From Prevotella sp. (lineage in GTDB: Bacteria > Bacteroidota > Bacteroidia > Bacteroidales > Bacteroidaceae): a stretch of 58,966 nucleotides of DNA. Where the stretch lies: the NCBI GenBank assembly GCA_017619375.1, contig JAFZSL010000002.1, positions 87,679-146,644 on the forward strand, written 5' to 3'. A program made the position numbers and the translations under genes. Below are positions 54,144 to 58,966 of the stretch, piece by piece (the stretch's first letter is position 1; the number at the start of each line of letters is the position of its first letter). A model generated the notes under the pieces. The model ran no database searches. It had not been told where the DNA came from and worked only from the letters and a program-made list of their open reading frames with translations.

Positions 54144-54186
54144 GAGCAAGTAGGAGGTTTTAGGAGCAAAGTAGGAGGCCTTAGGA
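54142..54186. repeat. GTAGGAGG-type tandem repeat
   Basis: Two units of the ~20-bp repeat also seen at 36694-36776; the first overlaps the yicC stop codon. Confidence 0.7.
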
Positions 54187-54207
54187 AAAATATGATTCCA
54201 AGGAAAA

Positions 54208-54252
54208 CCAGAAAAAAACCAGAAAAAAACCAGAAAAAAACCAGAAAAAACC
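54208..54252. repeat. 11-bp CCAGAAAAAAA tandem repeat before gmk
   Basis: Four units of CCAGAAAAAAA (last one shorter by one A), 15 bp before the gmk start. A related piece lies at 27321-27337. Confidence 0.85.
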
Positions 54253-54267
54253 ATAAATGACAAGACC

Positions 54268-55624: not shown

Positions 55625-56515
55625 ATGAAGGTGCTGGCCATCATCGTTTCCTATCATTTCATGCCTTGGGTGGACAAATGCTTGCCCAGTCTGCAGGCAT
55701 CCACATACCCGATGGACATCATGGTGCTCGACAACGGGTCGGATGACGAGTCGGTGGAACATGTGCGCCGCAACTACCCGGACGTGACGGTGGTGGACAA
55801 CCATGCCAACCTGGGGTTTGGAAAGGCGAACAACATCGGCATGCACCATGCCATGGAGAAGGGCTATGATGCCGTGCTGCTCATCAACCAGGATGCGTGG
55901 TTGGAGGCCGACGCCCTGGGGAGACTGGTGGATGTGTTGGAGAGCCATCCCGACTATGGCATCGTCTCGCCTGTCCATAGGAATGGCGCGGGCGACAAGG
56001 TGGAAAAGGGCTTTTCCGACTATACCGGTCTGAAAGACCTCCGACAACTGCCCCATGACGTCGTCGTGGAGGTGCCGTTCATCAATGCCGCCATCTGGCT
56101 GGTGAGGATAGAGGCGCTCAAGAGGACGGGACTTTTCGCACCGCTGTTCTATCATTACGGGGAGGACAAGGACCTGGCCAACCGCATGGCTTACCACCAT
56201 TATAAAATAGGTTATGTGCCGTCGGCTTTCGGCTGTCACGACAGGGAGTTCCGTGAGATGGAAAGGCAAAAATTCTTCTGGACGGAGTATGTCTACCACC
56301 TCTCGGAATATGCCAATGTCAACCATTCCTCCCTCAAGGCTTTCGCCCGTGGGGTCCTGGCCGTGGTGAAGAAGGCTCTTGTCTCCGCCTTTCATGGTCG
56401 ATGGGGCGACACCGCCGCCTACATACGACTCGGATGGAGGCTCCTCTGCCGCAGCAACGCAGTGCGCAAGACAAGAAAAATGGCGAGGAATAGTGTGCAT
56501 ATCCCCTTCCCATGA
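55625..56515 (+). CDS. Glycosyltransferase family 2 protein
   Basis: A 296-aa GT-A fold enzyme (MKVLAIIVSYHFMPWVDKCL, LDNGSDDESVEHVRRNY, NLGFGKANNIGMHHAM, INQDAW as the metal-binding acidic site, and HYGEDKDLANRM). It is similar to rhamnosyltransferase-type GT2 enzymes of cell-surface polysaccharides. The reading frame begins at a GTG at 55616; the ATG at 55625, spaced from GAGGAG, is the better start. It is 52 bases past nadD and has no other sugar genes next to it. Confidence 0.85.
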   Translation: MKVLAIIVSYHFMPWVDKCLPSLQASTYPMDIMVLDNGSDDESVEHVRRNYPDVTVVDNHANLGFGKANNIGMHHAMEKGYDAVLLINQDAWLEADALGRLVDVLESHPDYGIVSPVHRNGAGDKVEKGFSDYTGLKDLRQLPHDVVVEVPFINAAIWLVRIEALKRTGLFAPLFYHYGEDKDLANRMAYHHYKIGYVPSAFGCHDREFREMERQKFFWTEYVYHLSEYANVNHSSLKAFARGVLAVVKKALVSAFHGRWGDTAAYIRLGWRLLCRSNAVRKTRKMARNSVHIPFP

Positions 56516-56562
56516 GATTCCTCAAGGGGAGAAGTAAGAATTTTGATCAGATAAAGTGGGTT

Positions 56563-56674
56563 GTGAGTATAAGGCGTGGCGCTCATATCTGTGAGTACAA
56601 GGCGTGGCGCTCATATCTTTGAGTACAAGGCGTGGCGCTCATATCTTTGAGTAAGGGGCTCGGTGCTCATATCC
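56563..56674. repeat. 28-bp tandem repeat, four units
   Basis: Units start at 56563, 56591, 56619 and 56647. The first three differ at two or three positions; the fourth is more diverged and runs into the 50-bp element. Confidence 0.88.
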
Positions 56675-56712
56675 CCTCCCCTCGAGGGGAGGGGCTGGGG
56701 TGGGGTCTTTGA
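56663..56712 (+). repeat. 50-bp palindromic element, copy A
   Basis: Begins GTGCTCATAT, ends GGGTCTTTGA, and contains a perfect 22-bp palindrome centred on CTCGAG (56673-56694). Identical to copies B and C. Confidence 0.92.
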
Positions 56713-56810
56713 CCCTCAGGTTACACCCTCTTGGTTAGTTCAAAAGGTTAGTTAGCCTATACCAGCCACCCTGACCATCAGACGGTGCGCATCTCGGTGA
56801 CTATCAGCCG

Positions 56811-56860
56811 GTGCTCATATCCCCTCCCCTCGAGGGGAGGGGCTGGGGTGGGGTCTTTGA
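56811..56860 (+). repeat. 50-bp palindromic element, copy B
   Basis: Identical to copy A; left bracket of the DUF559 gene. Confidence 0.93.
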
Positions 56861-56955
56861 CCTTTTGACCCTCTGACTCACAGAAGGTTAATCCCAGTGG
56901 ATAGGTCCCCAAACAACAGAATCCTCAAGAAATACAATCAAATCAACGATAAAAG

Positions 56956-57342
56956 ATGCAATATAAGTCAGCAAAGGCAAATCCTTCAGGTCAAAAGGAC
57001 CAACGCAAAAGTTTGCGGTATCGGATGACACACGCGGAGGTGGTCCTTTGGCTGGCATTGAAGAATCGAGGTGTTGGTGGTTACAAGTTTCGTCGACAAC
57101 AAGGCATTGGGCCATATATACTTGATTTCTATTGTTATGAGTTGAAACTATGTGTGGAATTGGATGGAAGTTCTCACGATTATAAATCTGATTATGACGC
57201 ACAACGAACGAAGTATCTTAACAATCAAGGAGTCAGAGTGATGAGGTTCAAAAATGAACAAGTCATAAACTGTCTTGAAGGAGTCATTGCAGATATCTTA
57301 CGCATTGGGGAGGAAATCAAAACACAAACTACCCCACTTTGA
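56956..57342 (+). CDS. DUF559 domain-containing protein, PD-(D/E)XK nuclease fold
   Basis: A 128-aa protein of the DUF559 family, related in fold to very-short-patch repair (Vsr) and restriction endonucleases: MTHAEVVLWLALKNRG, GYKFRRQQGIGPYILDFYC, LCVELDGSSHD and VRVMRFKNEQVI. Asp57 and the Glu68-x-Asp70 pair are candidate metal ligands. The DNA is clearly more AT-rich than its neighbours. It lies between exact inverted copies of a 50-bp palindromic element (B at 56811, C at 57457), with a decayed copy just after its stop. This resembles a gene-carrying repeat unit, and its product may act on the repeat. Confidence 0.82.
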   Translation: MQYKSAKANPSGQKDQRKSLRYRMTHAEVVLWLALKNRGVGGYKFRRQQGIGPYILDFYCYELKLCVELDGSSHDYKSDYDAQRTKYLNNQGVRVMRFKNEQVINCLEGVIADILRIGEEIKTQTTPL

Positions 57343-57361
57343 TATTTTTTTGCGTGGGAAA

Positions 57362-57384
57362 TCAAAGACCTCACATATGAACAC
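57362..57384 (-). repeat. Decayed 50-bp element lacking its palindromic core, copy D
   Basis: TCAAAGACCTCAC is joined directly to ATATGAACAC, the two ends of the element with the middle 27 bp missing. The flank GCGTGGGAAA resembles that of copy C. Confidence 0.7.
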
Positions 57385-57456
57385 CTACTGTAGCATGGGT
57401 TGTTGTACGGTCTGTTGGCTGTGGTGTTTGGAGGCGAGTGTTCTTGGCGTGGAAAA

Positions 57457-57506
57457 TCAAAGACCCCACCCCAGCCCCTCCCCTCGAGGGGAGGGGATAT
57501 GAGCAC
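57457..57506 (-). repeat. 50-bp palindromic element, copy C (inverted)
   Basis: Exact reverse complement of copies A and B; right bracket of the DUF559 gene. Confidence 0.93.
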
Positions 57507-57623
57507 GGGCTACTGCACTGCTGCACGGGCTACTGCACTGCTGCACGGACTATTGCACTACTGCACGGACTGCTACACGGACTGCTACACGGACTACTGC
57601 ACGGACTACTGCACAGGTTGTTG
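57504..57623. repeat. CACGGACTACTG tandem array
   Basis: Three 20-bp units (57504, 57524, 57544) followed by four 12-bp units (57564, 57576, 57588, 57600) and a degenerate fifth. The 12-bp unit is the 20-bp unit with eight bases removed. Confidence 0.88.
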
Positions 57624-57644
57624 TAGTGGCCTAAAGAAAAGGAT

Positions 57645-58607
57645 ATGGGAGAAGATAAGGATATAAGTAAAGAAAAGGATATGGAAAAAGAAAAGTCGCT
57701 GCTGGCGCCCATCTTGCTGTTCGCCTACAACCGCCCCGAACACTTGAAGCGGTGCGTGGAGTCACTGATGGCTAATGAACTGTCGGCGGAAAGCGACCTC
57801 TTCGTCTTCTCCGACGCCCCCAGGACGGAGGAGGACAAGGAGGGCGTGGCCCAGGTCAGGGCGTTCATTAGGAGAATCGTGGGATTCCGCAAGGTGAGCA
57901 TCGTGGAAAGGGATGAAAACTGGGGCTTGGCACGCAGCATCATTGATGGCGTGACGACCGTGGTGGAGAAGTATGGCAGGGTGATTGTCGTGGAGGATGA
58001 CCTTGTCCTGGCGCCCTTTTTCCTGCAATTCATGAACGACGCACTGGATGTGTATGAGGATGAACCGAGGGTGGGGCATATCCAGGCGTGCGACTTCACG
58101 CAAGACCCTTCGCTACCCGACACCTTCCTTATCAAATGGACGGGGAGTTGGGGATGGGCCACTTGGGGTCGTGCATGGAAGCATTTCAATTCCGATGGTA
58201 CGGAACTGCTGAGGCAGTTGGAGGAGCGCAAACTCACCCGGACGTTCGACTTCAACGGGAGATATGGCTTCACGCGTATGCTGCGCCGACAGATAGAGGG
58301 GAAGAACAACTCCTGGGCCATACGATGGAACGCCTCTTTGTTCCTCAAAGACGTCCTCTCGCTCAATGTGGGGCGGTCGCTTGTGAGCAACCAGGGTTTC
58401 GACGGTTCCGGCACCAACTGCGGCGGCGGCGGACTGTATGCCTCCAACCTCCATATGCTTCCTCTCCCCGTGACTCGCATCTCGCCGATAGAGGAAAACA
58501 CGGCGGCGCGCAAGGTGTTCGAGCGCTATTACGCCCGCACCAATTCCTTCTGGGCGAAAGTACGGCGACGCCTCGCCCGCATCTTGAAAGGTGATTTCGG
58601 ACGGTGA
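57645..58607 (+). CDS. Glycosyltransferase family 2 / GNT-I-like protein
   Basis: A 320-aa GT-A enzyme (LLFAYNRPEHLKRCVESL, LFVFSDAPRTEED, VVEDDLVLAPFFLQFMNDAL with the metal-binding acidic triad, WTGSWGWATWGRAW). This type occurs in Bacteroidota surface-glycan loci. Two starts are possible: ATG 57645 and ATG 57681; both lie in a triple AAGGATAT repeat, and the residues between them (GEDKDISKEKD) are outside the conserved fold, so the later one is also reasonable. Confidence 0.83.
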   Translation: MGEDKDISKEKDMEKEKSLLAPILLFAYNRPEHLKRCVESLMANELSAESDLFVFSDAPRTEEDKEGVAQVRAFIRRIVGFRKVSIVERDENWGLARSIIDGVTTVVEKYGRVIVVEDDLVLAPFFLQFMNDALDVYEDEPRVGHIQACDFTQDPSLPDTFLIKWTGSWGWATWGRAWKHFNSDGTELLRQLEERKLTRTFDFNGRYGFTRMLRRQIEGKNNSWAIRWNASLFLKDVLSLNVGRSLVSNQGFDGSGTNCGGGGLYASNLHMLPLPVTRISPIEENTAARKVFERYYARTNSFWAKVRRRLARILKGDFGR

Positions 58608-58642
58608 TGAAGATTGGGCTATGCCCGAAGTTGCTCTCGCTC

Positions 58643-58670
58643 GGCAGACTCCAAGCGAGCTTGGTCTGCC
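58643..58670. repeat. Dispersed hairpin repeat, best-formed copy
   Basis: GGCAGAC + CAAGC pairs with GCTTG + GTCTGCC around GA (a TC bulge). Outside it AAGTTGC (58628-58634) faces GCAACTT (58682-58688), giving a nested structure. Confidence 0.75.
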
Positions 58671-58733
58671 CTCGCTTAATCGCAACTTTGAAGATTGCGC
58701 ACCGCCATTTTCGAAGTTGTGAATGCACCCGGG

Positions 58734-58758
58734 GTGTTCATCTCCCCTCCCCTCGAGG
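58734..58758 (+). repeat. 50-bp palindromic element, copy E, truncated at its centre
   Basis: First 25 bases of the element with two changes; ends at CTCGAGG, the palindrome centre, where unrelated DNA starts. Confidence 0.75.
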
Positions 58759-58762
58759 CTAA

Positions 58763-58776
58763 TCTTATACACATCT
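58763..58776. other. Stretch matching the end of the Tn5/Nextera mosaic-end sequence
   Basis: TCTTATACACATCT equals the last 14 bases of the tagmentation mosaic end. It may be a residual adapter or chimeric join rather than genome. Confidence 0.45.
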
Positions 58777-58860
58777 CTTCTACAATCTTTGATTCACAAA
58801 ATGATTACAATAAAAAATAAAGAATATTAAAAAAGGAGGAAAAAGATATAAAAAGGAGGA

Positions 58861-58922
58861 AAATCGCGATTAAGCGAGAGCAGACGAAAGCTTGTTTTCA
58901 GTTTGCCGAGCGAGAGCGATTT
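58861..58922. repeat. Dispersed hairpin repeat, diverged copy
   Basis: AAATCGC (58861-58867) faces GCGATTT (58916-58922), enclosing GCGAGAGCAGAC...GTTTGCCGAGCGAGAG, as in the copy near 58643. Confidence 0.6.
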
Positions 58923-58966
58923 ATCCAAAAATGAAGATGGAAAAAGTGCCAAGGCACTCTCAAAAA

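Follow-up and report, generated by a model that had tools for sequence, protein, structure and literature searches.

Introduction

Several described systems share features with the locus treated here, in which a gene for a DUF559 nuclease is enclosed by inverted copies of a 50-bp palindromic element in a 58,966-nucleotide stretch of Prevotella sp. DNA (contig JAFZSL010000002.1; the whole stretch is called the window below). The accessible parts of the articles cited here place a DUF559 gene of Thermosynechococcus in the EDxHD homing family, in a section on inteins (PMC9403480), describe Rickettsia palindromic elements of about 150 bp that lie in frame in metabolic genes (PMC10969869, from whose text the word 'nuclease' is absent), mention CGTC-tagged repetitive extragenic palindromic (REP) sequences that 'apparently lack a dedicated transposase' (PMC3733652), and present the DUF559 protein VsrA of Caulobacter, which damages DNA in vivo and triggers the DNA-damage response, as a repair enzyme that resembles Vsr and is linked to a methyltransferase (PMC12907096). 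DUF559 is not mentioned in the accessible part of PMC1189080, and among the titles and abstract openings retrieved by our searches of an open-licence library, none links DUF559 with hairpin repeats or with housekeeping genes interrupted in frame.

We consider it moderately probable that the feature in the window belongs to a widespread class of selfish units, each made up of a DUF559 nuclease gene between hairpin-bearing inverted repeats and resembling homing endonucleases in its way of life.

Results

The window gene and its frame

The open reading frame (ORF) of the window gene (Table 1) matches DUF559 (PF04480) in Pfam with an E-value of 1.8e-36. The domain covers residues 13–116 of 128, and an overlapping match to MTES_1575 remains below the cut-off. 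The protein has both the family profile and the catalytic residues of a PD-(D/E)XK nuclease of this family, whose strict catalytic motif was found in 171 of 179 DUF559 sequences. Its nuclease domain has the EDxHD fold of homing enzymes, and the nearest solved relative outside DUF559 is I-Bth0305I, by sequence as well as by Z score; Vsr is the third entry by Z in the structure comparison.

As the earlier note had described, exact inverted 50-bp copies (B and C) stand on the two sides of the gene and a third copy (A) lies upstream; repeat comparison and Pfam bear this out. Copies A, B and C are identical at 50 of 50 nucleotides, which is beyond chance, and the agreement of A with B extends to 54. 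Each contains a perfect 22-nucleotide palindrome, CCCCTCCCC-TCGA-GGGGAGGGG, with an all-pyrimidine 5' arm, followed by a G-run tail, GGGGAGGGGCTGGGGTGGGG, that resembles a G-quadruplex motif. By computed folding, the element as single-stranded DNA forms a hairpin with a 9-bp stem (-10.7 kcal/mol, z -2.2).

Many DUF559 genes in other genomes are framed in the same manner

PF04480 genes were collected down to an E-value of about 1e-28, so that counts per genome are lower bounds and a genome with none listed may still contain one. They occur in at least 87 of 150 genomes of the genus. The earlier note had predicted that DUF559 genes would be nearer to such elements than other genes are, and the prediction held: an exact inverted repeat of at least 12 nucleotides spans 42 of 60 DUF559 genes and one of 655 control ORFs from the same loci. 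These 60 loci were picked by hand, mostly from well-assembled or multi-copy genomes, after hairpins had been seen at 31 loci. Among all listed genus genes with enough flanking sequence, 111 of 146 passed the same test, compared with 78 of 858 combinations with the downstream flank of another locus and one of 142 when the flanks were shifted outward by 500 bp.

Hairpins were defined, after examples had been viewed, as perfect stems of at least 7 bp with a pyrimidine 5' arm and a loop of at most 10 nucleotides, within 350 bp of the gene. In the genus they accompany 126 of 148 genes, on both sides in 109, as against 74 of 2975 control windows; the opposite, purine-first hairpin was found at one of the 148. 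The phylum set gave 23 of 28 genes (both sides in 19; controls 1/78), and a multi-phylum set 17 of 24 (both sides in 8; controls 2/66), with purine-first hairpins at 0 of 24. The last set comprises Cyanobacteria, Deinococcus, Alphaproteobacteria, a deltaproteobacterium, Desulfuromusa, Anaerolineae, Anaerolineales, a spirochaete, Oscillospiraceae, Armatimonadetes and one other bacterium. While the hairpin sequence varies from host to host, the pyrimidine-purine pattern is constant.

The genus counts of both tests start from 150 units (the listed genes and locus L002), from which those with short flanks were removed (2/150; likewise 1/29 in the phylum set, 2/22 in a 'wide' set and 4/28 in the multi-phylum set, where two weak matches out of 30 had also been excluded). 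The 20 wide loci include three from Bacteroidota, and most of their other genes recur in the multi-phylum set. One-sided pyrimidine-purine hairpins of at least 7 bp were also seen at DUF559 loci of Neisseria, Methylobacterium and Photobacterium, and one of only 6 bp at an Escherichia coli locus; these four were read with a laxer 6-bp stem and no control, and stand outside all counts. A dRS3-like pattern was looked for in the one Neisseria locus read and is absent from it. In two loci of genome G691 (L421 and L428) the DUF559 frames contain 4 and 7 in-frame TGA codons, as if TGA encoded an amino acid.

Units recur at the same sites, also in frame within host genes, and empty alleles exist

Apart from LeuRS, DegT and the glycosyltransferases of the window, host genes were assigned names by eye, on the basis of sequence motifs. 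The window gene belongs to a clade of 25 members, here class II, taken from a larger quick tree (support 82). Of the 125 genus units outside it, 77 are free-standing. Another 34 are continuous with the downstream frame and 4 with the upstream frame, and the remaining 10 are enclosed in an ORF that stays open for at least 100 codons in both directions; in the phylum set, 13 of 29 units are inside an ORF. By comparison, 22 of the 25 class II units stand alone, and so does the window's own unit, which is not within a host ORF. Pfam identified LeuRS and a DegT aminotransferase as interrupted hosts. Others we take, by eye, to be MazG, an ABC-F protein, an epimerase, a helicase, MetH and HsdR, and fusions of DUF559 presumably involve GMK, IspF, RNase H and ArgB. 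The framing hairpins in host ORFs are read through without stop codons, and in locus L062 a start codon in frame with the next gene was seen by eye near the right end of the unit.

Empty sites in relatives, which the earlier note had suggested seeking, were found in close kin at the recurrent sites yicC-gmk, LeuRS and MetH (class I sites), and no empty allele of the window's own site was found. Of the 138 genus genomes in which yicC was matched, at least 16 (hand count) have a DUF559 unit immediately 3' of this gene. Genome G145 has a unit between yicC and gmk and G131 has none, at 95% identity over an 801-bp probe. The G145 unit starts immediately past the stop codon of yicC and extends into gmk; where G131 has 350 bp made up of the native spacer and the beginning of gmk, G145 has 635 bp. 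The RNase H site shows the reverse: it is occupied in G131, and G145 retains only the left hairpin.

In the genus of G202, LeuRS was matched in 25 of 27 genomes and was readable in 24: five carry DUF559 in frame, 18 have a stretch of 31 residues, and in G552 the stretch counts 33 residues and contains a lone hairpin. This in-frame hairpin (locus L354), standing where relatives have DUF559, may be a scar or a landing site. Since the LeuRS probe finds one place per genome, except for two genomes with two adjacent pieces, the interrupted LeuRS seems to be the sole copy. In several species (L347, L349, L351, L352, L363) the empty LeuRS loop consists of AAAATTC-like tandem repeats, and therefore this loop may collect inserts. 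For MetH, in the genus of G524, 109 of 121 genomes matched; among the best 30 of these 109 loci, 29 were readable, 5 of them occupied and 24 empty. At most of the occupied LeuRS and MetH sites the unit takes the place of some 8–10 residues in a variable loop or linker; in G589 a few more residues are retained. Inspection by eye showed no target duplication at these units. On Deinococcus plasmids of two species (L301, L302) another shared site was noted, where DUF559 lies between hpaB and hpaE with other genes alongside.

Element copies at the window site and elsewhere in the genome

The 4.26-Mb genome to which the window belongs contains three exact copies of the 35-nucleotide core, all in the window, and three further places with 1–3 mismatches. 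A looser 22-nucleotide core occurs at 24 places, compared with none for the reversed pattern. The same gene occupies the same site in an uncultured Prevotellaceae (L284) and in Prevotella sp. RGIG6036 (L285). Its neighbours are shared on both sides in L285 and downstream in L284, where the contig begins just upstream of the gene. Both loci have forward element copies upstream and reversed ones downstream, in differing numbers; because of this, the identical copies are best taken as a local array that is apparently expanding and contracting at a site common to three species. The earlier note saw recent spread in their identity: this fits the local array, and it does not extend to the whole genome, as the exact cores are all in the window.

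Three complete dispersed copies, of 193–198 bp, were found in this genome when 19 loci and the end of the window were searched (L022 1387-1582, L026 1390-1582, L031 1385-1582). They have outer inverted repeats, GAGTCCACTT...AAGTGGACTC, with two inverted hairpins inside, and in two of the three an exact 6-bp target duplication lies outside these repeats.

Dispersed elements accompany class II genes. At least three were present in 12 of 20 genomes with a class II gene, in 3 of 56 with other listed DUF559 genes only, and in 3 of 74 with none listed. Among the 71 genus genomes that are at least 90% complete, 11 have both a class II gene and at least three elements, one (G030) has the gene alone, none has elements alone and 59 have neither. 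This agrees with the expectation of the earlier note that the element should not be equally frequent in genomes without the gene. Nevertheless, this co-occurrence is weakened because the genomes are related: a yicC tree of 69 of them, which requires 6 and 5 changes in all for the two traits, provides only two independent pairs on supported branches, and the traits coincide in 1.9 of the 2 on average, too few for significance. In class II units the hairpin tends to face away from the gene and the G-rich tail towards it. An automatic score of the C- or G-rich tail side found the window type on at least one side of 8 of 25 class II units and the other type on 4 of 25 (elsewhere 13/154 and 39/154); it left most units undecided, so the two layouts are a tendency and not a rule.

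It is unlikely, in our opinion, that DUF559 acts on the hairpins as RAYT transposases (REP-associated tyrosine transposases) do on REP sequences, moving or maintaining the dispersed copies. The presence of a class II gene in all 11 of the more complete element-rich genomes would fit this, as would the lack of a Y1 transposase match in the window's genome and the inverted element pairs, which by eye resemble REPINs (inverted pairs of REP sequences). Against it, the dispersed copies have outer inverted repeats of their own, a DUF559 gene adjoins only 3 of the 24 element places, G030 has the gene without elements, and six genomes have at least three elements without a listed class II gene, all of them less than 90% complete. 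The proposal of the earlier note that DUF559 mobilises dispersed repeats is thus not supported, the 6-bp duplications being the mark of a conventional transposase. Such an enzyme is the simpler mover of the dispersed copies because of their outer repeats and duplications, and they were probably moved by an enzyme other than DUF559.

The same duplications favour another alternative, that all the hairpins are ordinary miniature inverted-repeat transposable elements (MITEs) or array repeats that owe their movement to a conventional transposase, with DUF559 a passenger caught between two copies. Outer inverted repeats with target duplication, as in MITEs, were found for the dispersed copies only. 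We rate this still a little lower: it leaves the framing of DUF559 genes unexplained, when 654 of 655 control ORFs are unframed, and neither the recurrence of the frame in several phyla with different hairpin sequences nor the kinship of units at the same site follows from it.

Kinship of units at the same site

In a tree of 107 DUF559 domains, built from 108 columns and with many forks not resolved, 54 rows assigned to 11 site groups require 11 changes, with a minimum of 10 and a mean of 40.3 after shuffling. Units at the same site are therefore mostly close kin across species, and the units of one genome are scattered.

The LeuRS inserts of G202 and G545 are 94.9% identical, and their flanks 86.2% and 85.6%. 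At four-fold degenerate sites the insert agrees at 58 of 68 positions and the flanks at 151 of 228 (p 0.0023). In this pair, the similarity favours transfer into the same site.

Vertical inheritance with frequent loss, that is, one entry per site and no present homing, is an alternative to which we give a slightly smaller chance than to a passenger gene. It agrees with the clustering of same-site units on the tree and with the MetH inserts, whose identity is below that of both flanks in 7 of 10 pairs; the G202-G545 insert, which exceeds its flanks in similarity, speaks against it. That DUF559 is a host repair enzyme of the Vsr type, with the hairpins as its terminators or regulators, is very improbable in spite of the rank of Vsr by Z and of the DNA-damage response caused by the Caulobacter protein (PMC12907096, accessible part), given hairpins that are often two-sided, inverted and translated in frame inside LeuRS, MetH and other proteins, and the patchy distribution of the gene among the genus genomes.

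Other features of the window

The copy that lacks its core just after the gene, and the truncated copy placed near 58734 by the earlier note, are both present (Table 1). The former matches copy C on both sides of a gap which, by eye, corresponds to the palindrome; in the latter an insertion-sequence-like end breaks the palindrome centre. Such an end (CTAATCTTATACACA...) adjoins the palindrome centre of the element at window positions 58759-58966 and also in L021, L024 (749) and L032, mostly near contig ends; the window itself ends with its contig. An insertion sequence with the end CTAATCTTATACACA seems to target these palindromes. Around the broken element, at 58628-58689 and 58860-58922, are two inverted-repeat pairs (families I3 and I4) with 80% and 86% complementarity, and immediately past copy C there are 20- and 12-bp tandem repeats (57503-57626, families D1 and D4). 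No RNA family of Rfam scored above gathering threshold in 56400-58966, and no plasmid DNA matches to the window feature were found.

Table 1. Positions of the DUF559 gene, the element copies and associated features in the window
Feature	Position	Strand	Basis
DUF559 (PD-(D/E)XK/EDxHD-like) nuclease gene, 128 aa, conserved D57, E68, D70, H74	56956..57342	+	Pfam, alignment, structure comparison
Copy A, 50-bp element; hairpin CCCCTCCCCTCGAGGGGAGGGG at 56673-56694, G-run tail after it	56663..56712	+	Repeat families D5, I2, I6
Copy B, 50-bp element, left frame of the gene; hairpin 56821-56842	56811..56860	+	Repeat comparison, folding
Copy C, 50-bp element, inverted, right frame of the gene; hairpin 57475-57496	57457..57506	-	Repeat comparison, folding
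Element copy without palindromic core, just 3' of the gene	about 57357..57386	-	Repeat family D8 (shared side); gap read by eye
Fifth element copy, truncated, interrupted at palindrome centre by insertion-sequence-like end	58733..58758	+	Sequence reading
Insertion-sequence-like end	58759 to contig end (58966)		Sequence reading
28-bp tandem repeats resembling the outer arm of the element	56564..56660	+	Repeat family D2; likeness to outer part of dispersed element by eye
yicC-gmk junction of the window itself, without DUF559	54144..54267	.	yicC, gmk named by eye

Discussion

A homing-like mode of propagation can be proposed for these units. Each framing inverted repeat holds a hairpin with a pyrimidine and a purine arm. 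The nuclease would act as a homing endonuclease that makes a cut in the recipient, either at the unoccupied site or at a bare hairpin; a donor sharing the flanking genes would serve as template for the repair, by which the unit would be copied in. The stop-free framing repeats, together with the in-frame start near the right end, would keep the host gene translated, so that splicing would not be needed. In the subclade of the window the same hairpins are also present as local arrays and as dispersed copies. The layout of the units, its generality in the sampled genomes, the fidelity of units to particular sites, their in-frame insertion and the empty sites in close relatives are observations; cutting, homing and the role of the hairpins are inferred, and for the window's own unit by way of its relatives. 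More tentatively, and with rather less confidence than in the homing-like class itself, it is possible that these units represent a bacteria-wide, undescribed selfish element that enters fixed loops and operon junctions in frame and needs neither splicing nor a transposase; the hairpins would be the structure that is recognised or the place of landing, and lone hairpins, as in the LeuRS of G552, would be scars or targets.

Several results weigh against the homing-like reading, in which cleavage, homing and movement of the units are themselves proposals. Pfam reveals no extra DNA-binding domain in the 128-aa protein, whereas homing enzymes of the same fold carry one, and by Foldseek E-value two mitoribosomal proteins are placed above I-Bth0305I. 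The frame is not universal: 22 of 148 genus genes have no hairpin under our definition, and in the phylum set the inverted-repeat test was weak, with only 7 of 27 genes passing (5/155 with swapped and 2/24 with shifted flanks). At yicC-gmk the unit has replaced, and not simply split, the native stretch of 350 bp that separates the yicC stop codon from the gmk core, and no target duplication was found there. Site groups taken singly require 1 to 4 changes on the tree, the highest figure being that of argC. Transfer is clear in only one of the 20 occupied pairs compared, and the similarity of the insert exceeded that of both flanks in 6 of 10 LeuRS pairs and in 1 of 10 MetH pairs. In DNA identity, G202 and G545 are each nearer to the empty G555 (87.0-89.8%) than to one another. 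Four-fold sites do not place G202 nearer to G555 (54/97 and 81/123, against 67/101 and 84/127 for the G202-G545 flanks), and because they do not bear out the DNA identity, the species order of the three is unsure; base composition may also have raised four-fold identity. Finally, vertical inheritance with frequent loss would produce loyalty to a site as well.

If the homing-like reading is true, it would provide a life style for a very common nuclease family known as 'unknown', and would account for numerous short palindromes rich in GC and for unusual in-frame insertions within essential enzymes such as LeuRS and MetH. The persistence of palindromic repeats without a known transposase would become directly testable, and, if the nuclease homes, it would be a compact cutter encoded by a gene that essential genes can harbour with no need for splicing.

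Comparison with known systems

By the tests run, the window unit is neither a RAYT system nor an intein, nor any defence system already known. PADLOC gave weak matches only (E 0.0036 and 0.0048), and a Pfam scan of two fused ORFs, those of LeuRS (L179) and DegT (L065), matched no Hint domain. A RAYT/IS200 system was rejected since the window's genome (G000) has no match to the Y1 (HUH) transposase PF01797 at E 0.001. The likeness to REP sequences and RAYTs proposed in the earlier note thus holds for the layout, with short palindromes, inverted pairs and a gene framed by inverted palindromic repeats, and fails for the enzyme. Unlike those systems, the locus encodes a PD-(D/E)XK-like nuclease, no Y1 enzyme was found in its genome, and the GTAG foot is absent from both strands of the 50-bp element on sequence reading.

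CGTC-tagged REPs occur in some of the same phyla as the DUF559 hairpins and differ in foot and stem, going by the description in the accessible part of their source; a link between the two would be a guess. Caulobacter VsrA shares the DUF559 domain with the window gene, and repeats are not discussed in the accessible part of PMC12907096. Rickettsia palindromic elements have in common with DUF559 units, though not with the window's own, the in-frame insertion in coding genes. EDxHD homing endonucleases such as I-Bth0305I have a long DNA-binding region, according to the accessible part of PMC3943268, that the DUF559 protein does not have, and the DUF559 units differ further in being framed by hairpin inverted repeats with no intron or intein; they are like these enzymes in the kinship of the nuclease, in recurrent sites and in the existence of empty alleles.
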